A DNA stretch of 64,000 bases from Pseudomonadota bacterium. GTDB lineage: Bacteria > Verrucomicrobiota > Verrucomicrobiia > Limisphaerales > SXTU01. The translations under genes and the position numbers were made by a program. Positions 5,917 to 58,058 of the stretch are shown here, one piece after another. The DNA lies in assembly GCA_009922615.1 (NCBI GenBank), contig RFVF01000002.1:1-64000 (forward strand), in the 5' to 3' direction. Within the stretch, counting starts at the first letter, position 1, and every line of letters starts with the position of its first letter. The notes below the pieces were generated by a model, which was not told the DNA's origin, did no database searches, and was given only the letters and a program-made list of their open reading frames with translations.

Positions 5917-7119
5917 ATGTCCAAGCCCATCATCAGCGTTCGCGGGATCTCCAAGCAGTATCGGCTCGGCTCGGCCAAGTCGCAGGACACGCTGCGCGAC
6001 CAGCTCACGCACTGGGCGAAAAACCTCGGCAAGGAGCAGGCGGACGCCAGTGAATCTTTCTGGGCACTGCGGGATGTCTGCTTCGACGTAAAGCCCGGCG
6101 AGGTCATCGGTGTCATCGGGCGCAACGGCGCAGGGAAATCCACGCTGCTCAAAGTCCTCAGCCAGATCACCGAGCCGACCGAGGGAGAAATTTACCTGCG
6201 CGGTCGGCTCGCCTCGTTGCTCGAGGTCGGCACCGGCTTCCATCAGGAACTCACCGGCCGCGAGAACATTTTCCTTAACGGCGTCATCCTTGGCATGACC
6301 CAGGCCGAGGTGCGCGCGAAGTTCGATGAAATCGTCGAGTTCGCCGAGGTCGGCAAGTTCCTCGACACGCCGGTGAAGCGCTATTCCTCCGGCATGTATG
6401 TGCGCCTGGCCTTCGCCGTCGCCGCGCATCTGGAGCCGGAGATTCTCGTCGTGGACGAGGTGCTGGCGGTCGGCGACGCGGCGTTCCAGAACAAGTGCCT
6501 GGGCAAAATGCAGGATGTGGCCAAGAACCGCGGACGCACCGTCCTTTTCGTGAGCCACAACATGGCCGCCGTGCAGGCGCTCTGCGGACGCATCATCCAC
6601 ATGGGCGGCGGTCGCGTGCTGGGCGATGGCAATCCCGACGCGCAAATCGCCGCCTATCTCGGCGAGATCAAGAAGCCGCGCACCGACACCGCCGTGCCGT
6701 TGGGCAAGATTGTCGAGTGCCGGCAACTGGAGTTCAGCCCCAACCCCAGCGTCAGCGGGCAGCCGCTGGAGTTCACGCTCGAACTCGGCGCGAAGCAGCG
6801 CACGCAACTCATCGACTGCGCCATCCTGATTTACAGCGTCTATGGCCAGCGCGTGGCGATCCTCGATTTGCGCAAGCCCACGGGCCAGTTCCCCATCGGG
6901 CCGGACGCGCCGTTCCGCTGCACGGGCCGGATCAAGCATTTCCCGCTCGTCGAGGGTGACTATCGCGTGGGGCTGTTCATGAACTGCTCGGAGTATTACA
7001 GCGACTACCATGACCTCGCGTCGCTGACCGTGAGCGCCGCGACGAAGGAAGGCGAGCTGGCTCCGTATGCCGCACACTTCCGCGGGCTGGTGGAGCTGGA
7101 GTGCGACGTGAAGTTTTAA
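5917..7119 (+). CDS. wzt: Polysaccharide ABC exporter ATPase with C-terminal substrate-recognition domain (Wzt-like)
   Basis: A 400-aa ATPase partner of the upstream permease. Walker A GRNGAGKST is at residues 68-76, and the H-family signature YSSGMYVRLAFA and Walker B ILVVDEVLAVGD follow in the first 230 residues. From about residue 255 to the end is an extra beta-rich domain of the Wzt C-terminal type, which in characterised exporters binds the terminal cap of the O-polysaccharide. Its presence points to export of a finished, capped chain rather than a KpsT-style capsule. It is the last clear member of the 2.7-7.1 kb polysaccharide operon. Confidence 0.88.
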   Translation: MSKPIISVRGISKQYRLGSAKSQDTLRDQLTHWAKNLGKEQADASESFWALRDVCFDVKPGEVIGVIGRNGAGKSTLLKVLSQITEPTEGEIYLRGRLASLLEVGTGFHQELTGRENIFLNGVILGMTQAEVRAKFDEIVEFAEVGKFLDTPVKRYSSGMYVRLAFAVAAHLEPEILVVDEVLAVGDAAFQNKCLGKMQDVAKNRGRTVLFVSHNMAAVQALCGRIIHMGGGRVLGDGNPDAQIAAYLGEIKKPRTDTAVPLGKIVECRQLEFSPNPSVSGQPLEFTLELGAKQRTQLIDCAILIYSVYGQRVAILDLRKPTGQFPIGPDAPFRCTGRIKHFPLVEGDYRVGLFMNCSEYYSDYHDLASLTVSAATKEGELAPYAAHFRGLVELECDVKF

Positions 7120-7125
7120 GCAAAT

Positions 7126-7503
7126 ATGGCCGAGCCGCAAACCATTGCCCGGTCGGCCGCATTGCCCGTGGTGGTCACGCTTTCAATAGTATCCGTGGTG
7201 CTGGCTTTGCTGGTGGCGAGCATGGCCCCAGGGGAATACCACCACTTCGAGCATGAGGCAGAAAGGCACGGCGGTGGCGGCTGGCCGTCTTTCACTGAGC
7301 ACACGAAGCTAGTGCCATTCCTCGGATTGGTGCTGGCGATACCCACTGTTGGATTCGGGATTCGCCTGTTGCGCAACCCAGACTGTCGACCTGCGACGCT
7401 TCTGTGGTATTGCTCGGTGGTCATCTTGGCGCACTTGCTTTGGCTGGTAGTGAGTTTCCTGTCAGTTTACGTGCTCTACGTGAAGTTCTACCACTGGCTT
7501 TAG
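7126..7503 (+). CDS. Small membrane protein of unknown function
   Basis: A 125-aa protein with three predicted membrane helices at about residues 9-31, 63-80 and 89-115. Between the first and second is a short His-rich stretch (YHHFEHEAERHGGGG) that may face the periplasm. I do not recognise the family. It starts six bases after the Wzt gene and is probably the last gene of that operon. An accessory role in glycan export or simple hitch-hiking are both possible. Confidence 0.6.
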   Translation: MAEPQTIARSAALPVVVTLSIVSVVLALLVASMAPGEYHHFEHEAERHGGGGWPSFTEHTKLVPFLGLVLAIPTVGFGIRLLRNPDCRPATLLWYCSVVILAHLLWLVVSFLSVYVLYVKFYHWL

Positions 7504-7577
7504 CCACGTCGCCGCATCCGATGGACACCGCCGCTTGCCTAGGTGCATCATCCGCGCCCTGAACTTCGACACGGATC

Positions 7578-10274
7578 GTGGCCACTGAATCGCCCAAGCT
7601 TTCGTTGGTCCAACGCCTCCTCACCCGGATGGCGGACGCGGTGTATTTGCATCCGCGCGCGTTCTTCTATCCGCAGATGGTGCTGTTCCTCGTGTGCCTC
7701 GTGTTCACGGTGCGGCACTTGGAGTTCAACACGAGCCGCAACGACTTGGTCGGCTCGGACAAGAAGTATCACCAGAATTTCCTCGCTCTGCTGAAGGAGT
7801 TCCCTGGACAAAGCGATCTGGTGGTCGTGGTCGAGAGCGACCGGATGGACAAGAACCGGCAGTTCGTCGAGCGGCTGGGCGCCAAGCTGGAGGCGGAAAC
7901 GAATCTGTTCACCGACGTGTTCTACAAGGGTGACCTGCGGCTGATGGGCCGCAAGGCGCTGCTGATGGCCAAGCCGGACGACTTGGTGGAGTTGCAGAAG
8001 AAGCTCAAGGATTACCAGCCGTTCATCAAAAACTTCGGGCAGGCGACGAACCTGGTTTCGCTGTTCTCCATTTTGAACCGGCAGTTCCGCACGGCCAAGC
8101 AGGAGGACAACGCGGAGAATGAATCCATGGTCGGGGCGTTGCCGGCGTTGGAGCGCATCATCACCGAGGCGCGGGAAAGTCTGGAGCGGCCCGGCAAGCC
8201 GCCATCGCCCGGCCTGAGCGCGCTGTTCGGCGACGGGCCGGAGGCGGAGCGCGAGATGTATGTGACCTTTGGCAACGGGCGGATTTACCTCGTGACGGCG
8301 CACGCCAAGCGGGAGGAATTGGAAGGCGAGGCGGTCGAGCGGATGCGGGTGCTGGTGGCCGAAACCAGGCGCGAAGTGCCGGGCGTGAGCGTGGGCCTCA
8401 CGGGCGAACCGGTGCTGGAGTTCGACGAGATGGCCCAGTCCCAAGCGGACTCCACGCTGGCGACGGTGGTGTCGCTCGTGTTGTCGGTGCTGATCTTCAT
8501 CTACGCCTACCATTCCGTCAGCCGGCCGGTGAAGGCGGCGGCGAGCTTGATCGTGGGTCTCACTTACACAATGGGCTACACGACGCTGGTAGTGGGGCAC
8601 CTGAACATTTTGACGATCACATTTGCGCCAATGCTGATCGGGCTGGCGATTGATTTTGGCGTGCATCTGGTGGCGCGTTTCGAGGAGGAATTGCGCCGGG
8701 GACGGACGGATCGCGAGGCCATCACGCTGGCGTTGGTGAACACAGGGCAAGGCGTCTTCACCGGCGCGGCGACGACGGCGGCGGCGTTCTTCGCGATGGG
8801 CATCACGAACTTCAAGGGCATCCAGGAAATGGGCATCATCGCGGGTGGCGGCCTGTTGATCTGTCTGGTGCCAATGATGACGTTGTTGCCGGTGTTGTTG
8901 CTGCGCGGCAAACCAATGGCGGCGAAGGTGACGACTTCGCAGACGAATTTCCGCGAGCAACTCGAACGGCTCTGGCTCAACCGGCCCGGCGCAGTGCTGG
9001 TGGCCACGGCGGCGTTATGCGCTCTGTGCGGTGCGCAATTTGGCAAGGTGCACTTCGATTACAACCTGCTGCACATGCAGTCGGCTGGCTTGCCGGCGGT
9101 GGTCTTCGAGCAGCGCCTGATCGAGTCCGGCTCGAACTCGATCCTGTCGGCCGCCGTCGTGGCGTCGAGTCTGGAGCAGGCGGTGTTGCTGGAGCAGCGG
9201 CTGACGAATCTCACGACCGTGGCGAAGGTCGAGTCCATGAGCCGTTTCCTCGCGGAGGATGCGACGCCCAAACTCCCGGTCATCCGCCAGATCAAGGAGG
9301 ATGCGGCGGCGGTGCGGTTCGCGCGGCTGGACACGCAGCCGGTGAACGTGCCGGAGTTGCTGCAGGTGCTCTACTCGTTTCAAGGCTTCGTCGGCATGGC
9401 GGAGGAGGTCACCAAAAAGGAGGGTGAAACGAAGCTGGTGCCGGTGTTTCGTTCATTGAAGGAGGCCACGCAGGCCTGGCGCAATGCGCTAGTGGCGGCA
9501 CCCGAGCACGCGGCGAGACAGATGGCGGATTATCAACAAGCTTTGCTGATGGACTTGCAGGACACGTTTGGCGCGCTGGCCGAGCAACAGGCGAGCCCGC
9601 TACGCAGGGAGGATTTGCCGGCGCCGTTGCGCAACCGGTTCATCGGCGTGTCGGGGAAATACCTGTTGATGGTTTTCCCCAAGGGCGACGTGTGGCAGCG
9701 CGAGACGCAGGAGGCGTTTGTGAAGGAGTTGCGCACGGTGGACCCGAACGTGACTGGCACACCGGTGCAACTGCTCGAATACACGACGCTGCTCAAGGAC
9801 AGCTACGTGGAGGCCGCGTGGTATGCGACGGCGGCCATCGCCCTGATGGTGCTGCTACATTTCCGATCGCTACTGTGCGTGTTGCTGGCGTTGCTGCCGG
9901 TGGTCATCGGGACGGTGTGGATGGTGGGACTCATGGGTTGGGCGGGCATTCCCTTCAACCCGGCGAACATCATGACGTTGCCGCTGGTGGTGGGCATTGG
10001 CGTGACGAATGGTATTCACATCCTCAACCGTTTTGCGGAGGAAAAAAATCCATCTATCCTCGGACGCAGCACCGGGCTGGCCGTGCTGGTCTCCGGGCTG
10101 AATACCATGGCTGGCTTCGGCAGCCTGATGCTGGGCAAACATCAAGGCATCCAGAGCCTGGGCTATGTCATGTCAGTGGGCACGGCGACTTGCATGATCG
10201 CCTCGCTGACGTTTCTTCCGGCCGTGCTGGCCCTACTCCTGAAACTGGGCTGGCGAAAAGAAAAGGCCCAGTGA
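7578..10274 (+). CDS. RND-superfamily MMPL-type exporter
   Basis: An 898-aa inner-membrane transporter with two-fold symmetry: one membrane helix, a large periplasmic domain, five helices (about residues 295-450), then the same pattern again (helix near 475, second periplasmic domain, five helices at about 745-890). Membrane segments such as FAPMLIGLAIDFGVHLVARF and TLPLVVGIGVTNGIHILNRF are typical of the MMPL/HpnN branch, which moves lipids or hopanoids using proton motive force. The start is GTG at 7578. No hopanoid genes are nearby, so the substrate is unknown. The last nine bases of the gene form one arm of a minus-strand terminator. Confidence 0.85.
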   Translation: MATESPKLSLVQRLLTRMADAVYLHPRAFFYPQMVLFLVCLVFTVRHLEFNTSRNDLVGSDKKYHQNFLALLKEFPGQSDLVVVVESDRMDKNRQFVERLGAKLEAETNLFTDVFYKGDLRLMGRKALLMAKPDDLVELQKKLKDYQPFIKNFGQATNLVSLFSILNRQFRTAKQEDNAENESMVGALPALERIITEARESLERPGKPPSPGLSALFGDGPEAEREMYVTFGNGRIYLVTAHAKREELEGEAVERMRVLVAETRREVPGVSVGLTGEPVLEFDEMAQSQADSTLATVVSLVLSVLIFIYAYHSVSRPVKAAASLIVGLTYTMGYTTLVVGHLNILTITFAPMLIGLAIDFGVHLVARFEEELRRGRTDREAITLALVNTGQGVFTGAATTAAAFFAMGITNFKGIQEMGIIAGGGLLICLVPMMTLLPVLLLRGKPMAAKVTTSQTNFREQLERLWLNRPGAVLVATAALCALCGAQFGKVHFDYNLLHMQSAGLPAVVFEQRLIESGSNSILSAAVVASSLEQAVLLEQRLTNLTTVAKVESMSRFLAEDATPKLPVIRQIKEDAAAVRFARLDTQPVNVPELLQVLYSFQGFVGMAEEVTKKEGETKLVPVFRSLKEATQAWRNALVAAPEHAARQMADYQQALLMDLQDTFGALAEQQASPLRREDLPAPLRNRFIGVSGKYLLMVFPKGDVWQRETQEAFVKELRTVDPNVTGTPVQLLEYTTLLKDSYVEAAWYATAAIALMVLLHFRSLLCVLLALLPVVIGTVWMVGLMGWAGIPFNPANIMTLPLVVGIGVTNGIHILNRFAEEKNPSILGRSTGLAVLVSGLNTMAGFGSLMLGKHQGIQSLGYVMSVGTATCMIASLTFLPAVLALLLKLGWRKEKAQ

Positions 10275-43354: not shown

Positions 43355-44998
43355 TTGAACGAACTTTTCCAACGCCACGGAAACGCCTTGCGCCACGCGC
43401 TCGCCGTGCTGGCCGGGCTGCTGCTGGCGGCGGCGTTTCCCAAGCCGGGCGTCCCGGGCTTTGCGTGGGTCGCGCCGGGACTGCTGCTCTTCAGCGCGGT
43501 CGGACAGCCGGCGAAGGTCGCGTTCCGGCTTGGCTGGCTGGGTGGCTTGGCCTTCAACCTCGCGGCGCTGCACTGGCTGCTGTTCATCCCGGTGACGGGC
43601 TTTCCGATTCTGGGCTGGCTGGCGTTGAGCGCGTATTGTGCGCTGTATCCGGGGCTGTGGGTGTGGCTTTGCTGGCGCATCGGACCAAACGACTTTCAAA
43701 CCTTGAACCGCAGACAACGGGCGTGGTGGACATTTCAATGCGCGGTGCTGTGGGTGGCGCTGGAAACCATTCTCGGCTGCTTCCTCACGGGCTTTCCGTG
43801 GCTCGCGCTGGGCGTGTCGCAGCACAAACTGGCGCCGCTGATTCAGATTGCGTCGCTCACCGGCGTCGTGGGCGTGTCGTTTCTGGCGGTGTGGTTTGCG
43901 GTCGCGCTGGCGGGAGATGGGATGGAATTGTGGCACCGGTCCGAGCGGTTCAACAAATGGGTGATGGTGTGCCTGCTGCCGCTGGGTGCAGCGGTGGTTG
44001 TGACCGCGTGGGGGTTCCAACATTCGTTAGGCAAGTATTACGAAGATTTGCGGCGGGGTGATCGCCGAGAATTGTCGCTCGCTCTCGTCCAGCCCAGCAT
44101 TCCGCAGACGATGATTTGGAACCCGGCGGAGAAGACCAACCGCTTCGCCAAGCTGATGCAGCTCTCCGAACTCGCGCTCGCCACCAAGCCCGACGCGCTG
44201 GTCTGGCCCGAGGCCGCGTTGCCGGACATGAACGAGGAGAGCTTCCGCGCGGTCACGAACCTCGTCGCCACGCACCAGGTCTGGATGGTCTTTGGCGCAG
44301 ATGACTACGAATTGAAGCCCGGCGCGCCGCGTGACTCGCAACAGCCGGCGGACTACAACTTTTACAACTCTGCGTTCCTGCTTTCGCCCGAAGGCAAAGT
44401 TGTCTCGACCTACCGCAAGCGGCGGCTCGTGATCTTCGGCGAATACATCCCATTGCTGGACTGGCTGCCGTTTCTGAAATGGTTCACGCCCATCGAAGGC
44501 GGCTTCACAGCGGGGAAGGAGCCTGTGGCCTTCACGTTGCCCGTGCCGCGACCCGAAGGCGACACGCGCCCGCCGCTCCGGGCCGGGATGTTGATTTGCT
44601 TCGAGGATGTCATCGCCTCCGCCGCGCGCGAGAGTGCGGCGGACGCGGACTTCCTGCTGAATCTCACGAATGACGGCTGGTTCGGCGAGAGCTCACAGCA
44701 GTTCCAGCACGCGGCGCACAGCGTCTTCCGCGCGGTGGAGAACCGCCGGCCCGTCGTGCGCTGCACGAACAACGGCCTGACCTGCTGGGTGGACGAATGG
44801 GGCTTCACGCACGCCCTCGGCGTGGGTGACGCGGCGGACGTGCATGGCGCGGGCTTTCGCGTGGTGAAGCTGGCCGTGCCGATCCAAGGCTCAGAAGCTC
44901 GGACATTTTATCAGAGGCACGGGGAGTGGTTCGGCTGGAGCTGCGTGGGCTTGTCGCTGCTGCGCCTGTTCCGAATCCGCCGCGCGACCGGCGCTTAA
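43355..44998 (+). CDS. lnt: Apolipoprotein N-acyltransferase (Lnt)
   Basis: An approximately 547-aa inner-membrane enzyme that adds the third acyl chain to the N-terminal Cys of lipoproteins. Eight hydrophobic segments precede a periplasmic nitrilase-like domain with the catalytic Glu in VWPEAALPDM, Lys in STYRKRRLVIFGEYIP and Cys in MLICFEDVI. NLTNDGWFGESSQQFQH is a further family motif. No ATG fits; TTG at 43355 or 43319 are the best starts. The stop codon overlaps that of the convergent cyclase gene (TTAA). Its presence supports a diderm envelope. Confidence 0.88.
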   Translation: MNELFQRHGNALRHALAVLAGLLLAAAFPKPGVPGFAWVAPGLLLFSAVGQPAKVAFRLGWLGGLAFNLAALHWLLFIPVTGFPILGWLALSAYCALYPGLWVWLCWRIGPNDFQTLNRRQRAWWTFQCAVLWVALETILGCFLTGFPWLALGVSQHKLAPLIQIASLTGVVGVSFLAVWFAVALAGDGMELWHRSERFNKWVMVCLLPLGAAVVVTAWGFQHSLGKYYEDLRRGDRRELSLALVQPSIPQTMIWNPAEKTNRFAKLMQLSELALATKPDALVWPEAALPDMNEESFRAVTNLVATHQVWMVFGADDYELKPGAPRDSQQPADYNFYNSAFLLSPEGKVVSTYRKRRLVIFGEYIPLLDWLPFLKWFTPIEGGFTAGKEPVAFTLPVPRPEGDTRPPLRAGMLICFEDVIASAARESAADADFLLNLTNDGWFGESSQQFQHAAHSVFRAVENRRPVVRCTNNGLTCWVDEWGFTHALGVGDAADVHGAGFRVVKLAVPIQGSEARTFYQRHGEWFGWSCVGLSLLRLFRIRRATGA

Positions 44999-46206
44999 AC
45001 TTTCTTCCCGTCGAGCAGATAGGAGCGGACTTCGCCGACGCCTTTGCAGTGGACGGCTCCGCGTTCGGTGAGATGGAACTTGTCGCGAAGCAAGCGGCGG
45101 GTGCCTTCGGAGATTTGAACGTGGTTGGGTGGGCCGGAGGATTGCATCCGGCTGGCGAGGTTGACGGTGGTGCCCCAGAGATCGTAAGTGAATTTCCGGC
45201 GTCCGATCACGCCGGCGATGACCGGGCCGGAGTTCAGGCCGATGCGGAGGGCGAGCTGGGTGCCGCGCTCGCGATTGAGGTCCGCAGTCACCGCCAACAT
45301 CGCGAGTGCCATCTCCGCGACCACTTCCGCTTGGTCCGGACTCGGGACCGGCAGCCCGCCGACCACGAGATAGCTGTCGCCGATGGTTTTGATTTTTTCC
45401 AAGCCGTGCTGTTCAGCGAGGCGGTCAAAACGGGAGAAGAGGTCGTTGAGCAGGGAGACGAGTTCCTCGGGCTCGGTCTGATTGGCGAGCGAGGTGAAGC
45501 CCACAATGTCCGCGAAGAGGACGGTGACCTCGGTGAAGCGTTCGGCGATGGTGCGCTCGCCCAGCTTGAGCCGGTCGGCGATGGCCCGGGGGAGGATGTT
45601 CAGCAGGAGGCGCTCGGATTTTTCCTTCTCGATTTCGAGGAGCTGCTTTTCCCGCTGTAGCTCAACGACGCGCAGCCGTTCGAGATCGCGCAGGCGCTTG
45701 CGCTCCAAGGAGGCGGTGACGCGCGCACGCAGGATGATGGCGTTGACGGGCTTGGGCAGAAAATCCTCCGCCCCCATTTCGATGCAGCGGGCGACGGATT
45801 CCAGTTCGTTCATGCCCGAGGCGACGATGACCGGGAGGTGGTGCAAAAAGGGATCCTCCTTGACGGTCTGCAGGACAGTGAAGCCATCCATGCCCGGCAT
45901 CTGAATGTCCAGCAAGAGCAGGTCAAACTCGCGCTCCCGCAGTGCCACGAGAGCGGTTTCGCCATCGGTGGCCTCGGCTAGGTTATGATAGCCGAGGGAG
46001 CGGAGCGTGAGGGTCAGCACCGTGCGCATCGGATCATCATCGTCCACCACGAGGATGGCGGCCTGCTGGCCCGATTGATCACCTTCGGCCCGCTGCAACT
46101 GCAGTGCCTGTTCCGGGGTCAGGCCGCTTTGCAGGTCGGCGCGCAACAAGCGAAAGGCACTGGGCTCCTCCTCGGGCAGATGCGGAGGCTGGAGGGGTGC
46201 TTCCAT
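44995..46206 (-). CDS. Response regulator fused to class III adenylate cyclase
   Basis: A 403-aa cytoplasmic protein. A receiver domain covers about 50-165 with the acidic pair at 55-57, phospho-acceptor D100 and K152 (PKP). A helical linker, VELQREKQLLEIEKEKSERL, and the cyclase-transducer-like LLLNILP follow. The catalytic domain starts at VTVLFADIVGFTSLA (metal Asp 233) and includes IKTIGDSYLVVGG and FTYDLWGTTVN. The Lys and Asp that select adenine in adenylate cyclases are both present, so the product is probably cAMP. The cognate sensor kinase is not adjacent. Homologues exist widely in PVC bacteria and cyanobacteria. Confidence 0.85.
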   Translation of the reverse strand: MEAPLQPPHLPEEEPSAFRLLRADLQSGLTPEQALQLQRAEGDQSGQQAAILVVDDDDPMRTVLTLTLRSLGYHNLAEATDGETALVALREREFDLLLLDIQMPGMDGFTVLQTVKEDPFLHHLPVIVASGMNELESVARCIEMGAEDFLPKPVNAIILRARVTASLERKRLRDLERLRVVELQREKQLLEIEKEKSERLLLNILPRAIADRLKLGERTIAERFTEVTVLFADIVGFTSLANQTEPEELVSLLNDLFSRFDRLAEQHGLEKIKTIGDSYLVVGGLPVPSPDQAEVVAEMALAMLAVTADLNRERGTQLALRIGLNSGPVIAGVIGRRKFTYDLWGTTVNLASRMQSSGPPNHVQISEGTRRLLRDKFHLTERGAVHCKGVGEVRSYLLDGKKV

Positions 46207-50749: not shown

Positions 50750-51283
50750 TCAGGTCACCGAGCTGGTCGAACAACTACAGTTGGGCGAACACGGAATACC
50801 CGCCGGCCTTTCTTCGGCCTGAAGGCCGCGGTCCAAGCCGGGGTTGGCTCCGCCTAAATCGTCAACGACCTTACACAGCTGTTTGTAATAATCCTCGCGG
50901 CTCAGCCCCAACGCGGCGGCCCCGAATGCCTCGGCATCCTCCGCCGTGGCGAAGTCACCGTAGTTCACCGCGACCAACTGGTAGAGCACCAGCGCGGGCA
51001 CGGAGTTCAATTCCGTCTCGAAGCGAGGGTGGACACATACGCGGAAACCGGCGTCAGGGCGCGCGCCGAGCGGTTCGGGGTAGGCGAACTCGTCCGGTTG
51101 GAGCGGCGCGGCATCGAACGCGATCGTGCATGGGTAACGCACGAACTTGCGGTCTTCGAGGAGTTGGTTGAGTTCCGCCCAGCCGAGATTCGGGCCGAAC
51201 TTCGCGCGGACCTCCGCGCCCTTCGTAGCGCAGTGGTCGCGGAGAGATTGGCGGGCGTCTTCGGCGGTGAGCTGAGTTGCCAT
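50750..51283 (-). CDS. Last gene of the electron-transfer operon, 177 aa, function unknown
   Basis: It starts two bases after the NrfD-type gene and so belongs to the same operon. The protein is soluble and acidic, with no signal peptide and no heme motif. A central segment, PEPLGARPDAGFRVCVHPRFE, and a C-terminal helix, REDYYKQLCKVVDDL, are recognisable landmarks. The last about 40 residues change character and end in a Cys-rich PCSPNCSCSTSS tail. I do not recognise the family. It could be a cytoplasmic partner or assembly factor of the membrane complex. Confidence 0.6.
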   Translation of the reverse strand: MATQLTAEDARQSLRDHCATKGAEVRAKFGPNLGWAELNQLLEDRKFVRYPCTIAFDAAPLQPDEFAYPEPLGARPDAGFRVCVHPRFETELNSVPALVLYQLVAVNYGDFATAEDAEAFGAAALGLSREDYYKQLCKVVDDLGGANPGLDRGLQAEERPAGIPCSPNCSCSTSSVT

Positions 51284-51285
51284 GA

Positions 51286-52959
51286 CTAGGTGGTGCGGGT
51301 GAAGCGGCCTTGGAGGATCGGCACGGCCACGCGCAGGAGCACGGTGTAAACGAGCAACCCAAACGCCCAGATGCCGAAGCAGATGAGCGTTTCGTTGAGC
51401 GTCGGCGAGTATTCCACGATCTCGCCCAGCGGTGACGGCACGAAGCCAGGGATGACGAGGCCCATGCCCTTCTCGATCCAGATGCCCACGATCGCCAGCA
51501 CGCACGCGACGTCGAGCCACTTAAGGCTCGTGCTGATCGGCAGCAGCAGCAGCGTGAGCGCAGTCAAGTTGCAAGCGATGGCACTCCAAATCCACGGCAC
51601 AAGCGCGTGGTGGCCGTGCAGTCCGAAGTAGAGATATTGCGACGCGGCGACGTGCAGGTTGCCGGTGTAGAACTCCTTGAAGACTTCGTTGAGCAGAAGG
51701 AACACGTTGATGATCATCGAGACCTGCACGATGTGCCGGAGCGTGAGCAGCGCGCGGTCGCTGATCATGAGCCGGTCGTGCATCCGCGCGCGGATGACGC
51801 GGGCCAGCGCCGGGGCTTGCATCAACTGCCGCAGAGTCTCCACGGGCACGCGTAGCACGCGACTCGGCGACTCGGCCACGGCGGTCGCGGTGCGTGGTGT
51901 GCCGGCCAGCGCGGAGATTTCGCCGAACTGCTCGCCGGGGCCCAGCGTGCGCACGGTGCGGAGCCGGCCGCTGTCTTCGCGGTTCACGGCGACGCGACCT
52001 TGGAGGACGAAGTAAGCCCCTTCACCCCGCGCGCCTTGCCGGAGGAAGACATGCGCCGCCGGAACTTCAAACACGGTCCCGCTCGCAAGCAAGTGTTGCC
52101 GGGCCGCGTCGGAAACAGAATGGAACTCAGGCAGGAATTTCCCGAGCAGGGCCAAATCCTCGGCGGCCGGCGGATGCGTTGACTGCGCGGCTGGATCGCT
52201 TTGAGCAGGCAGCTCATCCGCAGCCCGCGCCGTGACACGTCGCACGACTTGCAGCGCGAGGATGATGAGCGCCGGTCCCGCCGTGAACGCGGACGCGAGG
52301 AAGCGCGGCCCGATGATGGCGGAGTTCCAAAAAGGCCGCCCGCCCAAGCCAACGTAGAGAAACGCCGTGACCGTGTGGATGGACACCGCCCACACGATGC
52401 CGACGAGAATGACCGGCAGGTAAAGCCACTTGCGCGGCGGCTGCTTCTCATAACGGCACCAGAGCAGGTAGGCGCAGACGTAGAGATTCAGCACGAGGTA
52501 ACCGTTGAGCACGATGACGTCCCAGCTCAGGAGCGAGCCGGGGAAGTTGAACTTCCCGACGCCGGGAATCATGTGCCAAAAGCGATCAGGCCGCCCGAGG
52601 TCCACCATCACGAACGCGAGGCACATGAGAATCGCCGCGATGGCCAGCAACTCGCCGAAGATGACGAGGTCGTGCAGCTCCTCGTTTTTGTAAACGTAAA
52701 CGGGAATGACGAGCATGACCGCCGCCGCCGCCACGCCGACGAGGAAGGTGAAGTTCGCGATGTAAACGCCCCAAGAGACTTGGTCCGTCATGTCCGTGGT
52801 GATGAGACCGTGGACGAACTGCTTGGCGTAGGCGTTAAGGCCCACGAGACAGAGCGCGAAAAGCCCACCGGTCCATGCGTAGTAGCGCCAGTCGCCGTCA
52901 CAGGCGAGCTGGCCGCAGCGAGCGAGGAAACTTAGAAAGTTTTTCAACGACCGGGTCAT
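51286..52959 (-). CDS. NrfD/PsrC-type quinone-reactive membrane subunit with an inserted cyclic-nucleotide-binding domain
   Basis: A 557-aa inner-membrane protein. About ten helices (near 30-50, 62-90, 98-120, 146-168, 178-205, 215-240, 405-428, 452-475, 482-505 and 525-550) give an NrfD/ActC/DsrP-like quinol oxidoreductase. Between helices 6 and 7 lies a complete cyclic-nucleotide-binding domain (about 268-395): the beta core AYFVLQGRVAVN and the phosphate-binding cassette FGEISALAGTPRTATA, with Glu347 and Arg356. The loop is Arg-rich at its entry (VVRRVTAR), so it probably faces the cytoplasm. The start overlaps the ferredoxin gene's stop (ATGA). I know of no described NrfD protein built this way. 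Confidence 0.88.
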   Translation of the reverse strand: MTRSLKNFLSFLARCGQLACDGDWRYYAWTGGLFALCLVGLNAYAKQFVHGLITTDMTDQVSWGVYIANFTFLVGVAAAAVMLVIPVYVYKNEELHDLVIFGELLAIAAILMCLAFVMVDLGRPDRFWHMIPGVGKFNFPGSLLSWDVIVLNGYLVLNLYVCAYLLWCRYEKQPPRKWLYLPVILVGIVWAVSIHTVTAFLYVGLGGRPFWNSAIIGPRFLASAFTAGPALIILALQVVRRVTARAADELPAQSDPAAQSTHPPAAEDLALLGKFLPEFHSVSDAARQHLLASGTVFEVPAAHVFLRQGARGEGAYFVLQGRVAVNREDSGRLRTVRTLGPGEQFGEISALAGTPRTATAVAESPSRVLRVPVETLRQLMQAPALARVIRARMHDRLMISDRALLTLRHIVQVSMIINVFLLLNEVFKEFYTGNLHVAASQYLYFGLHGHHALVPWIWSAIACNLTALTLLLLPISTSLKWLDVACVLAIVGIWIEKGMGLVIPGFVPSPLGEIVEYSPTLNETLICFGIWAFGLLVYTVLLRVAVPILQGRFTRTT

Positions 52960-53912
52960 ACGTCGAAGTAGTAGTAGAACCGCGGCAATGTTCCGACTTC
53001 CTCCTTAAGCACGAAAACGCGCTTGTTGCGGAGGATTTGTGAGACCTCGCTGGCCGGGTCGAGGATGTTGCCGAACTTGCGCGCGCCGGTCGGGCAGACT
53101 TCGAGGCAGGCCGGGTATTTGCCCGCGCGCGTGCGCTGGATGCAGAAGTGGCATTTCTCCATCACGCCCTTGTGGCGCGGGCGGTTGCCCAGATACGCCA
53201 TGTCGGCGTTGATCTGCTCCTTCGGAATCTTCGGCTCGGCGAAGTTGAAGCGCCGCGCGAAGTAGGGACACGCGGCCTCGCAGTAGCGACACCCGATGCA
53301 CCAGTCGTAGTCGATCACCGTGATGCCGTCGCTCTCCTGCCAGGTGGCATCCACGGGACAGACCTTCACGCACGGCGGGCTTTTGCACTGGTGGCACTGC
53401 ACCGGCATGTAGAAAAAGCCTTTCTCCGGCACCGTCGGCGTCGCGTAATGATGATCGCCCTTCTCCATGTCGAACGTGCCGTTGGGCATCTTGAGCACAC
53501 GGATGTATTGGATCTCCGGGCTGCGCGATTGGTTGTTCTCGGCGACGCATGCGTGAACGCACTTCCGGCAGCCGATGCAGCGCGTGAGGTTCAGGCAATA
53601 GACGAACTCCACGCCATCCATCGGCCGCAGGTCGCGCACGTGCGGTCGCAGGCCGTATTGCTTCTCGACCTCGCGGCGGATGCGCGCCAGCGCCTGCTCC
53701 ATCTCGACGGGGGTGAGTTCCTTGTAGTGCTTCTGGAGAAATTCCTCGACGGACCCGAAGTCGCTCAACTCGCGCAAAGGCGCGAGGCTCGCAGCCATCG
53801 CGGCCAGGCCGGACGCCACGGCAGCGGACGTGCGGAGAAAGCTGCGGCGGCTGGTCCCGCCATCGGCAGGGGCTGGCGCGGCGAGGTTCGGCAATGAGGA
53901 ATTCGCAGGCAT
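52956..53912 (-). CDS. Tat-exported four-cluster ferredoxin-like subunit (DsrO/HmcB/NrfC type)
   Basis: A 318-aa periplasmic iron-sulfur protein. The Tat signal SRRSFLR is at residues 21-27, followed by a hydrophobic stretch. Four Cys groups of the 4Fe-4S type follow: CIGCRKCVHAC, CHQCKSPPCVKVCP, CIGCRYCEAACP and CHFCIQ with a later CLEVCP. In NrfCD/DsrOP systems such a protein carries electrons between the quinone-reactive NrfD subunit and periplasmic cytochromes. It is directly coupled to the NrfD-type gene and one base after the pentaheme gene. Confidence 0.9.
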   Translation of the reverse strand: MPANSSLPNLAAPAPADGGTSRRSFLRTSAAVASGLAAMAASLAPLRELSDFGSVEEFLQKHYKELTPVEMEQALARIRREVEKQYGLRPHVRDLRPMDGVEFVYCLNLTRCIGCRKCVHACVAENNQSRSPEIQYIRVLKMPNGTFDMEKGDHHYATPTVPEKGFFYMPVQCHQCKSPPCVKVCPVDATWQESDGITVIDYDWCIGCRYCEAACPYFARRFNFAEPKIPKEQINADMAYLGNRPRHKGVMEKCHFCIQRTRAGKYPACLEVCPTGARKFGNILDPASEVSQILRNKRVFVLKEEVGTLPRFYYYFDV

Positions 53913-53913
53913 G

Positions 53914-54639
53914 TCAGTGTCCTTTCAAAACCGTGCGAAACGGCGGCGGCAAGGGTTTAAGTCGCGGCAACACGGGGGCGTGCGGGTCGTGACACGACGT
54001 GCAATCCTTGCGGTCGGTCGCGCCAAGCTTGGTATTCCAGAAGCCGTTGTGCCGGCCATGAACACCCTCCTGCCAATCGCGGTAGCTCGGGCCGTGACAG
54101 CTCGCGCAAAGCAGTGTGCTCTCGGTGAGCTTCAGTTTCTTGCCGCCGGGCGTATGCAACTCGGTGAGGTTGGTCGGGTCGTGGCAGTTGAAGCAGTGAT
54201 CGTTGCCGATAGTGCGACCGTGCTGCGCCACATCGTTTGTGTGAGCGGCGGGTGTGAGGATTTTTCCTTCGGTGTCGAATTTCAGTTCCACCTTCTCCTC
54301 CGGCGCGTGGCAGGCCGCGCAGTTCATTCGGGAGAACACGACATCGCGATGCGCAACGGAGGGAATCAATCGACCGGCCGCGTCGAACTTCGGCGCGACC
54401 GGCTTGTCCTTGCTGTGGCACGCATAGCAATCGAGGCCCGAGACATCGCCGCCGGACTTGGTCAACTCCGCGACGGAGAGCCGCACCGTCGCGGTGTTGG
54501 TGAAGACTCGGCTGGTAGTGAAAGACTGGTGGGCGAGCCCACCGCTGCTTCCGGCATTGGTCCAGAAGGCTACCGCAGTCCCGGCGAACAACGCCGTGAG
54601 CGCTGCCATCACCGCCGAGGTTTTCTGGTTGTCGTTCAT
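53914..54639 (-). CDS. Membrane-anchored pentaheme cytochrome c
   Basis: A 241-aa protein with one N-terminal helix (about 9-27), probably an uncleaved anchor, and a periplasmic domain with five CXXCH motifs: CYACH, CAACH, CFNCH, CASCH and CTSCH. Extra His residues provide distal ligands. Anchored pentaheme cytochromes occur in alternative complex III (ActA) and in NrfB/NrfH-like quinol-oxidising modules, so this is the likely electron acceptor or donor of the ferredoxin/NrfD pair. Confidence 0.88.
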   Translation of the reverse strand: MNDNQKTSAVMAALTALFAGTAVAFWTNAGSSGGLAHQSFTTSRVFTNTATVRLSVAELTKSGGDVSGLDCYACHSKDKPVAPKFDAAGRLIPSVAHRDVVFSRMNCAACHAPEEKVELKFDTEGKILTPAAHTNDVAQHGRTIGNDHCFNCHDPTNLTELHTPGGKKLKLTESTLLCASCHGPSYRDWQEGVHGRHNGFWNTKLGATDRKDCTSCHDPHAPVLPRLKPLPPPFRTVLKGH

Positions 54640-54678: not shown

Positions 54679-55017
54679 CTATTTCGCGAAAGTCCTGACC
54701 TTCGCGACAAGTGCCTTCAGTTCATCGTCGGTGAGCGTGCCCTTGAAAGGCTTCATTTTCTCTTTGCCCTTGTCGGACACGCCGTCCTTAAGCCGCTGAA
54801 GAATCTGATCGTCAGTAAACTGCTTTTGATAGGCAGCGTCAGTGAGATCCTTCGCGCCGGCCATGCGACCGGCCTTGGTCTTGGCTGTGCCATCCGCGCC
54901 GTGGCAGGAGCCGCAGTGCTTGGTCCAATTCTCCGCGACATCGGCAGCGGTCAACGTCTGACTAGCGGCCAGCAGCAGCGTGGCCGTGGTGGCGAGGAGG
55001 GTGTGCTTGAGGTTCAT
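54679..55017 (-). CDS. Monoheme class I cytochrome c
   Basis: A 112-aa periplasmic cytochrome. The signal peptide ends near LTAAD; the single heme site is CGSCH and the likely axial Met is in KEKMKPFKG. LTDDELKALVAKVRTFAK is the usual C-terminal helix. Such a small cytochrome can shuttle electrons between the inner-membrane complex and the outer-membrane conduit. The ATG at 55017 gives a normal leader; a longer in-frame start would overlap the barrel gene. Confidence 0.88.
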   Translation of the reverse strand: MNLKHTLLATTATLLLAASQTLTAADVAENWTKHCGSCHGADGTAKTKAGRMAGAKDLTDAAYQKQFTDDQILQRLKDGVSDKGKEKMKPFKGTLTDDELKALVAKVRTFAK

Positions 55018-55036
55018 AGGCGATGATAGAGCTGAG

Positions 55037-57181
55037 TTAGAAACGGTAGGTGAGGGACGAAAACAGAAGATGTGCAGTGTAATTATCCAGCCCGCCCGAC
55101 GTTTCATCGCGGTGCCGGAAGTAGCCGTAGCTGAGCGTGCCCTTCACCGCTTTGCTGAAATTGCGACTGAGACTGACGTTTACGGTGTGGTCGTTGCCGC
55201 TGGTGCCGTAGGGCATGCTGTAGGCCGAGTTGTTGATGAAATTGTTGGCGCGATAGTAGAAGTAGTTCGCTTGCAGGTCGGTCTTGTCATCCACCACGAA
55301 GGTCGCGGCGGCCGTCGCCTGCCAGTAGTCGTTGCGTGCATCACTGACGAGGCCGAGCGCGCCGCCGGTGAGCGCGCTGACCGGCGTGGTGGTAGAGTCC
55401 AGCGCGTAGCTGAAGGTGCCCTGCAGGAAGAGCCGCGACCACGGAACCCAGGTCAACGTCTGGCTGATGATGTGCGCCGTGGTCTGCGCGGTTTCCATGC
55501 CGACCAGTTTGTCCGGGAAGGTTTCGACAGTGGAGATTTGGTAGTCGTAGCGAGTGACCGAGGTGACGTTCGGTAGTGGCCGCCACGTCGCACGCAGGTT
55601 GAAGTCGTCGGTGCTGAACTTATGCGCCAGAAGATAAGCCGGATAGCGATCGCCGCTCGTGTTCAGCGTTGAGTCCACCAAGTGGGTATAATCGTTATCA
55701 ACGCTCTTGTGGTAGAACTGGCCGGAGAAGTGGAGCTTCCGCAACGGATACCAGTTGGCGCCGAAGGTGTATTTCTGCGTGAAGCGTTCCGAGTCCGTGC
55801 TCCGGTTGACGGCCGTCGTCGCGGTTGTGACATCTTGCTCCGTCTCGCGCAGATAGCCATCGCCCTCCGACCACTCACCGCGCGTGTAGAGCACCCAGTT
55901 TTGAAAGCCAGTGTAGCGGGCCTCCATGGCTTCAGAGACCGTGACGAAGCCATTTTGCCGCGAGTTCAAGAGGTGGTCTTCGGCCGTGACAAAGCCCGGC
56001 CCGGCTCCCACGGCCGTTTCGGTGAACGTGGTGCTGCCAGTGGTGTCGATTTTTTCCGCGCGTAACGATGGAACGAGCACCAAGTTCTCTGCCAATTCCA
56101 AACGGAGAGACAGATTCATCACGTATTGGTCCACGATAGAGCCCCCACTTAGGTTGTAGAAACCTTCGTCATGGAACTGCCTATTTGGCGAAGTCTTTGA
56201 ATAGACCGCGTCGTAGCCCGGGCCGTATATCCGGCTACCACCGACACCTGTGTCTAACCGCGTATAGGAATAACCGGTCGTCAACAGCACGGCGTCATTG
56301 AAGCGTGTCTCAGTGAATCCGTGAAAGTTGAGCATGTCCGCCTTGAACAGCTCGCGTTGGGTCACATACCGGTCCGCGCCCGCCTCGCCGGGCTTGCGGT
56401 GTTCCTTGAGCGCGTCGTTGTTGTCCACCATGTCCAGGCGCACGCCGAAGCCCACATCGGATTTGCCGAGCGTGTGCTTCAGGTCCGCGATGACAATATT
56501 GCGCAACTCATCCAATTCCCGGAAACTCGGCACCATCCCACGCGCCGTGCCGCCCTGAGTAGAATCGCCCCAGATGATCGAGTCCTTGGTGCCTTTGCGA
56601 TACTCGCGGGCCAGCTTCAACGTCAGCATCGGGCCATCCGGCGGTGTCAAACCGCCTTCGATCCAGTATTCGCCGCGCTTGAGACTCAGCTCATCGCTGT
56701 AGAGTGAAATCGACTTGCCGGTGGCCGGGTAGTAGCCTCCGCTGCCATCATACCAAGTCTGCGATTGCTTGAAGCCGGCCCGCAGAAACCCGACGTCCGG
56801 GCTGGCGACACCGAGCTTCACGGAGAAATCCTGCTGGCCATACATGGCCTTCCCGTCCAGCTCCAGCATCCCTTTTTCACCAAACATCAACTCGTAGTGA
56901 AAGTCTTGCAGCCCGCCCAACACCCCCTGCGACTTGCCCCAGCGCTCCTGAAATTGCGCGCGGTTGCCGCTGGTGGAGACGCCGCCCACGCCAAGTGTGA
57001 TCCAGTTGGCCGGCTCGTCGGCCGGGTTGGCTGCGGTTGGCTTTTTTGCCCCGGCCGCGTCGTTCGTCGGCGCCGACTGGGCCAGCAAGCCCGGGCCGGT
57101 TCCCAACGCCGCGGCCAAGGTCAGCGCGCCCAGCGCGAGTCTGGCGCCCGGCAATTCCTGATGTTTACAGTGGATTTTCAT
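55037..57181 (-). CDS. MtrB/PioB-like outer-membrane beta-barrel protein
   Basis: A 714-aa protein with a signal peptide (MKIHCKHQELPG.., cleavage after LLAQSA) and a body of alternating amphipathic strands, ending in LFSSLTYRF with the terminal Phe expected for BAM substrates. N-terminal features such as WITLGVGGVSTSGNRAQFQE and DGKAMYGQQDFSVKLGVAS match the MtrB/PioB group of large barrels that sheath a multiheme cytochrome across the outer membrane. Its neighbour is the MtrA-like cytochrome. MtrB from Shewanella carries an N-terminal CXXC that is not seen here. An alternative start is 57193. Confidence 0.78.
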   Translation of the reverse strand: MKIHCKHQELPGARLALGALTLAAALGTGPGLLAQSAPTNDAAGAKKPTAANPADEPANWITLGVGGVSTSGNRAQFQERWGKSQGVLGGLQDFHYELMFGEKGMLELDGKAMYGQQDFSVKLGVASPDVGFLRAGFKQSQTWYDGSGGYYPATGKSISLYSDELSLKRGEYWIEGGLTPPDGPMLTLKLAREYRKGTKDSIIWGDSTQGGTARGMVPSFRELDELRNIVIADLKHTLGKSDVGFGVRLDMVDNNDALKEHRKPGEAGADRYVTQRELFKADMLNFHGFTETRFNDAVLLTTGYSYTRLDTGVGGSRIYGPGYDAVYSKTSPNRQFHDEGFYNLSGGSIVDQYVMNLSLRLELAENLVLVPSLRAEKIDTTGSTTFTETAVGAGPGFVTAEDHLLNSRQNGFVTVSEAMEARYTGFQNWVLYTRGEWSEGDGYLRETEQDVTTATTAVNRSTDSERFTQKYTFGANWYPLRKLHFSGQFYHKSVDNDYTHLVDSTLNTSGDRYPAYLLAHKFSTDDFNLRATWRPLPNVTSVTRYDYQISTVETFPDKLVGMETAQTTAHIISQTLTWVPWSRLFLQGTFSYALDSTTTPVSALTGGALGLVSDARNDYWQATAAATFVVDDKTDLQANYFYYRANNFINNSAYSMPYGTSGNDHTVNVSLSRNFSKAVKGTLSYGYFRHRDETSGGLDNYTAHLLFSSLTYRF

Positions 57182-57194
57182 GGCGCTCTCCATT

Positions 57195-58058
57195 TCAGAA
57201 GCGAAGGGATGAACCGATGTTGGAACCATGCACCGCCTCGTGGCAGCCGCCGCTGAAGCACGTGCCGCGTTTGAGGAAGGCGGTGTGATCAACGCCGCCG
57301 TTGAAGACCTTGCCGGCCACAGTCTGCTGTTGGAAGTGGCACTTGTAGCACAGGGTCGCGTTGCGTTCCGTGAGCATGCGGCGGTTCACCGAACCGTGCG
57401 GCTTGTGACAAGTCGTGCAGCCCTCGCGCACAGCCTCGTGCTCGAAAACGAACGGCCCGCGCTGCGCCGTGTGACACCGGCCGCAGGTCTCGTGCTCCGT
57501 CGCGATCTGCGTGCCGCCGCCCGCGATGGCGGGGCCCTTGTGCGGATGATGGCAATCAGCGCAGCTCACCTTGCCTTCCAGCACCGGATGATGATGCGGG
57601 AGCGAGAACTCGCCGCGCTTGTCGAGGTGACACTTGAAACACGTCTCGGCATCGCGGCGTGGATTGAGGATGTTGTTGCGTCCGCCGCCGGCCTGCGCGT
57701 GCAGACTGCCGGGGCCGTGGCAGCCTTCGCAACCGAGGTTGACCGCGTTGGTGCCCTTGGCTTGCAAGCGGGCGTGGCCGGAGGTTTTGAAGTCCCGGAC
57801 CGCCTCCGCATGGCACTGGGCGCAGTTCTGGTTACCCACGAACTCAGCCCCAGGAATGTTCGGCAGGTCAATGACCGTCCGCGTGACCGTGGCACAGGAG
57901 ACGATCGCCGCCGCCGCCGCCACGCTAATGCCCAAAGTTCCCCATCGCACAGTCGAGGCCACCCAGTCGCGCACCGGTCGGGCCTCCGGTGGGCCGCTCG
58001 CCTCGGGTTGGTTGTCAGTTCTCACGCCCGCAGCGTGGCTGAACGGCGCGAGCGGCAC
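57195..58058 (-). CDS. MtrA/DmsE-like multiheme c-type cytochrome, probable lipoprotein
   Basis: A 287-aa cytochrome that probably starts the operon. The leader ends in an IVSC lipobox, so it is likely lipid-anchored. It has seven CXXCH motifs (CAQCH, CEGCH, CFKCH, CADCH, CGRCH, CTTCH, CYKCH) and a terminal CFSGGCH, a CX4CH site. KPHGSVNRRMLTERNATLCYKCH and AVHGSNI resemble DmsE/MtrA-family decaheme proteins, which have ten hemes; this one has eight sites. Fused into the barrel encoded downstream it would form the heme wire through the outer membrane. Confidence 0.85.
   Translation of the reverse strand: MPLAPFSHAAGVRTDNQPEASGPPEARPVRDWVASTVRWGTLGISVAAAAAIVSCATVTRTVIDLPNIPGAEFVGNQNCAQCHAEAVRDFKTSGHARLQAKGTNAVNLGCEGCHGPGSLHAQAGGGRNNILNPRRDAETCFKCHLDKRGEFSLPHHHPVLEGKVSCADCHHPHKGPAIAGGGTQIATEHETCGRCHTAQRGPFVFEHEAVREGCTTCHKPHGSVNRRMLTERNATLCYKCHFQQQTVAGKVFNGGVDHTAFLKRGTCFSGGCHEAVHGSNIGSSLRF

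Follow-up and report, generated by a model that had tools for sequence, protein, structure and literature searches.

A cyclic-nucleotide-binding domain inserted in the NrfD/DsrP-type membrane subunit of a verrucomicrobial respiratory-type gene set

Respiratory chains are usually seen as tuned by gene expression, by substrate and by membrane potential, and cyclic-nucleotide-binding domains (CNBDs) that act on a membrane helix are familiar from channels, where they are placed at the channel's end, beyond its membrane part. Here we describe a gene in a stretch of 64,000 nucleotides from a genome that GTDB places in the Verrucomicrobiota (contig RFVF01000002.1, assembly GCA_009922615.1; hereafter the window). 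This gene (51286..52959, minus strand) encodes an NrfD/DsrP-type membrane subunit of 557 residues with an inserted CNBD, according to Pfam, NCBIfam and an AlphaFold2 (AF2) model. We propose, with a probability of roughly 0.6, that the fusion is a quinol:cytochrome c oxidoreductase whose turnover is switched by cyclic AMP (cAMP) or cyclic GMP (cGMP) bound on the cytoplasmic side.

Among described systems, DsrP of DsrMKJOP is the best family match for the fusion, with ten predicted helices and residues at the spacing of DsrP1, whereas the present locus differs from DsrMKJOP by the inserted CNBD and by an iron-sulfur (Fe-S) partner that scores under the DsrO cut-off (172 against 200 bits). Membership of the complex in DsrMKJOP is ruled out, since neither DsrK (28.1 against 400 bits) nor DsrA (19.2 against 392.85 bits) reaches its cut-off in the window's genome, a draft of 331 contigs that is 92.6% complete. 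CbcSTU (Cbc4) of Geobacter is alike in that c-type cytochrome, Fe-S and integral membrane genes form one cassette; it is called a menaquinol:ferricytochrome c oxidoreductase in PMC11434368, where SirCD of Shewanella is described as able to replace CymA in several pathways. The same text calls CbcU a b-type cytochrome, yet its annotation is said to match an NrfD gene; the likeness of CbcU to the fusion is thus left unsettled there, and the one drawn here is of gene make-up. The word 'cyclic' does not occur in the main text of that paper. ActC of alternative complex III (ACIII) is about 20% identical to the fusion and belongs to a different complex. The window's genome holds just one other NrfD-type match; it lacks a CNBD and adjoins a large Fe-S protein, and judged by this neighbour we read it as ActC-like, in an ACIII arrangement.

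On the side of the inserted domain, the CNBDs of the MlotiK1, SthK and HCN channels, of PKA and PKG, and of CRP have the same fold and ligand cassette, but those of the channels stand at the channel end while that of the fusion stands within a redox subunit. Family 2B encapsulins also have an internal cNMP-binding domain, present in some members only, for which the authors propose a regulatory role (PMC8346489), although these are shell proteins and not membrane enzymes. Regulation by a fused ligand domain had been called not normal for NrfD proteins in an earlier note on this DNA, which is in keeping with the literature: the main text of an NrfD review (PMC8076601) contains none of the words 'cyclic', 'fusion' and 'fused', and no title or abstract among those listed in open-access searches describes a protein that combines NrfD with a cyclic-nucleotide domain, which is weak evidence of absence from print. 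The sole exact-phrase co-mention of the two, in PMC13332983, refers where it occurs to a separate gene.

The fusion is a single open frame that starts at 52959 and whose stop codon ends at 51286. Pfam NrfD covers residues 55-247 (129.5 bits, curated cut-off 25.8) and Pfam cNMP_binding residues 298-381 (73.2 bits, curated cut-off 27.5); the NCBIfam DsrP model (NF045798) scores 413.4 bits against a cut-off of 350 and matches in two stretches, while it matches the three insert-less relatives tested in one stretch (418-428 bits). Of the ten predicted helices, number 6 (216-243) is separated by the insert from number 7 (401-431). Besides scoring above the Pfam gathering threshold, the inserted domain is predicted to have the CNBD fold. 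It comprises residues 266-398 (51766..52164), with helices and strands from 266 to 394 in the AF2 model, and is preceded in that model by a linker (244-265; 52165..52230), which its entropy marks as variable. Within it lies the phosphate-binding cassette (342-360; 51880..51936), and a conserved joint (392-400; 51760..51786) leads from its C-helix to helix 7, all on the minus strand. The earlier note had the interval right, its strand unstated, as well as the split between helices 6 and 7, domain limits (268-395) that agree with the model, and the positions of Glu347 and Arg356 of the cassette.

Residue conservation was computed, without de-duplication, over 154 insert-bearing rows, made up of the window's protein, 119 homologues and 34 loci; the cassette is covered by 153 of these rows. 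There, G342, F345, G346, E347, S349 and R356 are each invariant (153/153). The fusion evidently reflects a real insertion: a CNBD whose cassette is conserved and intact has entered the membrane subunit encoded by a respiratory-type gene set. The linker (residues 245-265) has a mean entropy of 2.67 bits, the highest of the five segments compared, followed by the domain with 1.23 bits, helices 7-10 with 0.46 and helices 1-6 with 0.41. The end of the C-helix is near-invariant (R392 and R396 in 152/153 rows, M393 and L397 in 153/153). Since the linker is very variable while the C-helix end hardly changes, we read the former as a loose tether and the latter, at the opposite end of the domain, as a lever into helix 7.

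The same architecture is found well beyond the window. A protein search in which at least 8000 candidates were scored gave both domains in 120 of the 120 matches listed, which include the window's own protein and range in identity from 68 to 100%. For loci we took one genome per species and the best 80 of 559 relatives, the window's locus being kept separate; the insert is present in 34 of these 80 loci, including L050, whose contig ends inside the domain and which was counted by hand, and absent in 46. Within this sample, 32 of the 34 insert-bearing loci are labelled Verrucomicrobiota, relatives by which we would assign the window's genome to that phylum too, and the insert-less members belong to Verrucomicrobiota, Planctomycetota and a few other groups. 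L017 (labelled Klebsiella pneumoniae) and L019 (labelled Proteobacteria) are tree neighbours of the window's protein, to which L017 is about 93% identical in both core halves, and are likely misnamed metagenome bins. In the metagenome bin of L047 the fusion frame (6913-8586) is interrupted by a stop. An even draw of 288 genomes of the phylum gave a full-length insert-bearing match in five, the window's genome included, and an insert-less orthologue in six, that is ten genomes in total because one has both states, weaker NrfD matches being left uncounted. The fusion is thus a recurrent family and no single oddity. The insertion, its predicted side, the cassette and a plausible link to extracellular electron flow stand in the earlier note's interpretation, which had missed both the recurrence as a family and the insert-less orthologues.

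In all 46 insert-less members the stretch equivalent to residues 238-404 has a length of 15 residues and is of the type RRVTxYRITDRAL. The insertion is exact, a tight turn of few residues holding about 150 extra ones. The cores of the window's protein and of the insert-less members compared are about 75-80% identical, and those of the closest pair of opposite state, L045 (insert-bearing) and L064 (insert-less), are 92% identical. Because orthologues with and without the insert reach such identity, the domain is, to all appearances, dispensable for the enzyme's basic job. A single origin of the insert followed by simple descent was rejected: on the core tree the CNBD rows are not one clade (approximately unbiased test, p 0.0027), and the insert state changes nine times, the starred branches forcing two, on what is a quick tree whose result gene conversion could confuse. 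This tree holds 76 of 81 rows, L048, L049, L050 and L069 being out as truncated and L088 for its long branch. The exact turn in insert-less members would favour gene replacement over deletion. Nearest neighbours by helices 1-6 and by helices 7-10 share the insert state equally (66/79 each), a weak test that gives no sign of separate histories of the two halves.

The membrane core comprises predicted helices 1-6 with the predicted quinone site (residues 24-243; 52231..52890, minus strand) and predicted helices 7-10 (residues 401-550; 51310..51759, minus strand). The AF2 model used was built from 72 rows, an earlier one from 30 rows having a predicted local distance difference test score of 68.5, and Foldseek gives ACIII subunit C as top match for both. 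The model shows an NrfD-like fold with two four-helix bundles as in ActC/PsrC, a type of fold that has 8-10 helices. Ten helices, a quinone site near the periplasmic Fe-S partner and a cytoplasmic position of the domain are predicted for the fusion. The cytoplasmic placement, already favoured by the earlier note, is predicted from the even number of helices, from a predicted inner side richer in Lys and Arg in 72 of the 72 rows, and from an Fe-S partner of the twin-arginine translocation (Tat) type.

The core residues can be set beside those listed for DsrP1 in Table 2 of PMC8076601, the matching being by spacing only, with jumps at loops and at the insert, and not by alignment. Y66, D120, S142 and D147, of quinone-site type, fit the spacing of Y52, D106, S124 and D129 of DsrP1; T71, Y88, E103 and Y154, of N-side path type, fit T57, Y74, E89 and Y136; and R208, R219, S223 and K497, of P-side path type, fit R189, R200, S204 and K329. 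These twelve residues are kept in 71 or 72 of the 72 rows, the serine and acid of the predicted quinone site, S142 and D147, in all 72. By comparison with the same review, E496-K497 occupy the position of a putative proton gate. Predicted helix 6, which runs into the insert, bears R219 and S223. S213, at the place of DsrP1 T194, is less kept (Ser in 60/72 rows), and spacing gave no counterpart for the other listed residues (R152, K162, S168, H176, T179, E254 and H266).

The fusion is preceded on the same strand by a run of genes for, in order, an MtrA-like cytochrome, a porin candidate, a monohaem cytochrome, a pentahaem cytochrome and the Fe-S subunit. The MtrA/DmsE-like cytochrome (57195..58058) has seven CxxCH motifs and one CX4CH; it matches PDB 6r2q_A (E 8.4e-32) and scores 160.6 bits with TIGR03508, under the cut-off of 192.2. 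We take 6r2q to be the Mtr complex, consistent with a search listing; its chain A carries the molecule name 'Cystathionine beta-synthase', apparently a label error. The large outer-membrane porin candidate (751 residues; 55037..57292, start uncertain) is so named because it is large and adjoins the MtrA-like gene; it has no Pfam or NCBIfam match, and its only two PDB matches (E 0.06 and E 0.1) are not convincing. The monohaem cytochrome c (54679..55107, start uncertain) and the pentahaem c-type cytochrome (53914..54639, five CxxCH) follow, then the DsrO-like 4Fe-4S subunit (52956..53912), which overlaps the fusion by the four bases ATGA and whose twin-arginine motif SRRSFLR is presumably a Tat motif. 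Two bases after the fusion's stop begins a conserved protein of 177 residues (50750..51283, minus strand), without Pfam or NCBIfam match, a candidate accessory subunit.

In Verrucomicrobia, He et al. 2017 (PMC5615132) described a porin gene next to that of a periplasmic cytochrome with eight haem sites, an arrangement that the present genes resemble by description; the main text of that paper mentions neither NrfD nor DsrP nor the word 'cyclic'. PMC6344600 and PMC6295460, in the parts considered, deal with verrucomicrobial porin-cytochromes and CymA/CbcL/ImcH and do not cover NrfD. With an MtrA-like cytochrome and a large porin candidate in the run, the suggested link to extracellular electron flow is plausible.

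Across the 80 loci, an Fe-S homologue is found in 77, the contig starting inside or just before the NrfD gene in the other three, and a multihaem homologue in 74; by these counts the multihaem, Fe-S and NrfD genes are common to both insert states. Homologues of the 177-residue protein occur in 61 loci, and those of the MtrA-like cytochrome and the porin candidate together in 23 (13/34 insert-bearing, 10/46 insert-less). The monohaem cytochrome is commoner beside insert-bearing genes (31/34 versus 17/46), a bias that may reflect just taxonomy, since close to half of the loci lacking the insert lie outside Verrucomicrobiota. Sixteen insert-less loci, mostly from Planctomycetota (L076, L078, L080-L085, L087, L088, L090, L091 and L093-L096), have downstream of the NrfD gene an 8-CxxCH protein unmatched by the window's proteins.

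A possible source of ligand is a response regulator-adenylate/guanylate cyclase (44995..46206, minus strand; Pfam, PDB). Its best PDB matches are adenylate cyclases, guanylate cyclases coming next with lower scores, and a Lys (EKIKTIG) and an Asp (YDLWG) align to adenylate cyclases at what we take to be the adenine-selecting positions. The window's genome has ten cyclase-domain matches, one with an internal stop. A dedicated neighbouring cyclase was rejected, this gene lying about 5 kb from the fusion in a linkage that other loci do not conserve. Between 47504 and 48587, a response-regulator-like frame stops early, after 107 residues, and a histidine-kinase-like one (252 residues) follows in another frame; named from their translations, the two are possibly a frameshifted hybrid or a pair of adjoining genes. 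The window's genome puts CNBDs on many kinds of protein. Four of its loci (L001, L004, L006 and L007) have CNBD fusions, in which the partners are a histidine kinase, an MscS-type channel, a SulP-STAS transporter and a metallo-beta-lactamase-fold protein. A second redox protein with CNBDs, on contig C323 of the window's genome (L129, 1506-3233; 575 residues), has a 4Fe-4S dicluster domain after two PF00027 stretches and adjoins an FAD/NAD reductase with a 2Fe-2S domain.

By analogy, the fusion would work as a quinol oxidoreductase of the DsrP or SirCD type that is gated by a ligand. Electrons from quinol would pass to the Fe-S subunit, then to the pentahaem cytochrome, the monohaem and MtrA-like cytochromes and perhaps outside the cell. 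Nucleotide binding, coupling to helix 7 and control of electron flow are the steps that we infer: the bound nucleotide would move the C-helix of the domain, and this movement would pass via the short conserved joint into helix 7 and shift the helix 6/7 hairpin. In this hairpin are R219 and S223, whose spacing is that of residues proposed for the periplasmic-side proton half-channel of DsrP, and a shift of the hairpin would alter proton-coupled quinol oxidation without new protein synthesis. The sign of the ligand effect, activating or inhibiting, is left unpredicted.

Several observations weigh against this proposal. The enzyme seems to work without the domain, as 46 of the 80 orthologous loci with the common core genes have no insert. 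For topology, the charge rule is broken at the outer loops 3-4 (+0.53) and 5-6 (+1.00), both net positive, the inner loop 2-3 is net negative (-1.08), and the predicted outer loops 121-140 and 201-210 have low confidence (block means 55, 54 and 49). At the joint, AF2 confidence is low (residues 391-400, block mean 65), and residues 399-404 are conserved in insert-less orthologues too, so that only 392-397 count as evidence of coupling. As for the ligand, residue 357, which adjoins R356, varies and gives no signal of nucleotide preference. Cyclases are found in all 15 related genomes tried (10 insert-bearing, 5 insert-less), hence their presence does not separate the two states, and none of the 80 loci has a match to the window's cyclase that reaches 100 bits, six loci having weak matches of 24-45 bits.

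The domain could also bind a cyclic nucleotide and yet control the assembly of the complex, its oligomer state or its location in the membrane rather than turnover, which we hold to be unlikely. CNBDs of channels and kinases often act through oligomers, and the insert is optional while the surrounding core is kept; the internal cNMP-binding domain of Family 2B encapsulins is likewise optional (PMC8346489). However, a domain anchored at both ends in the helix 6/7 hairpin, with a short conserved joint on one side, would be costly for a mere assembly tag. Electrons might equally run in reverse, periplasmic or extracellular donors reducing quinone and the nucleotide switching electron uptake. Gene content cannot tell the direction and the related Qrc complex is reported to reduce menaquinone (PMC13059093), but CbcSTU and SirCD, which are closer in make-up, are described as quinol-oxidising (PMC11434368), and we regard uptake as improbable. 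More doubtful still is a degenerate or structural CNBD that has lost nucleotide binding and on which a cytoplasmic partner docks: nucleotide binding is absent from many proteins of the CNBD fold, and the mean entropy of the domain is threefold that of helices 1-6, but E347 and R356 have not changed in any row despite the divergence of the rest of the domain. Finally, a sequencing or assembly error fusing two genes, which a 331-contig draft might invite but for which no support was found, is excluded for practical purposes by the same join in the 34 loci of other genomes and by both domains in every match listed.

Returning to a switch of turnover by cAMP or cGMP, natural pairs with and without the insert, such as L045 and L064 with their 92% identical cores, make its effect testable by comparison, and a ligand switch could probe the debated proton path of the NrfD fold. 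A fuller picture, which we offer tentatively and hold to be possible rather than probable, is that of a ligand-gated respiratory complex in Verrucomicrobiota, in which cAMP from the cell's many cyclases would bind within the quinol-oxidising membrane subunit, move helix 7 and thereby gate, within seconds, proton-coupled electron export to an outer-membrane cytochrome conduit, the principle of cyclic-nucleotide-gated channels being used in an electron-transfer enzyme. If true, this would mean a direct and fast second-messenger control of an electron route that possibly leads outside the cell.
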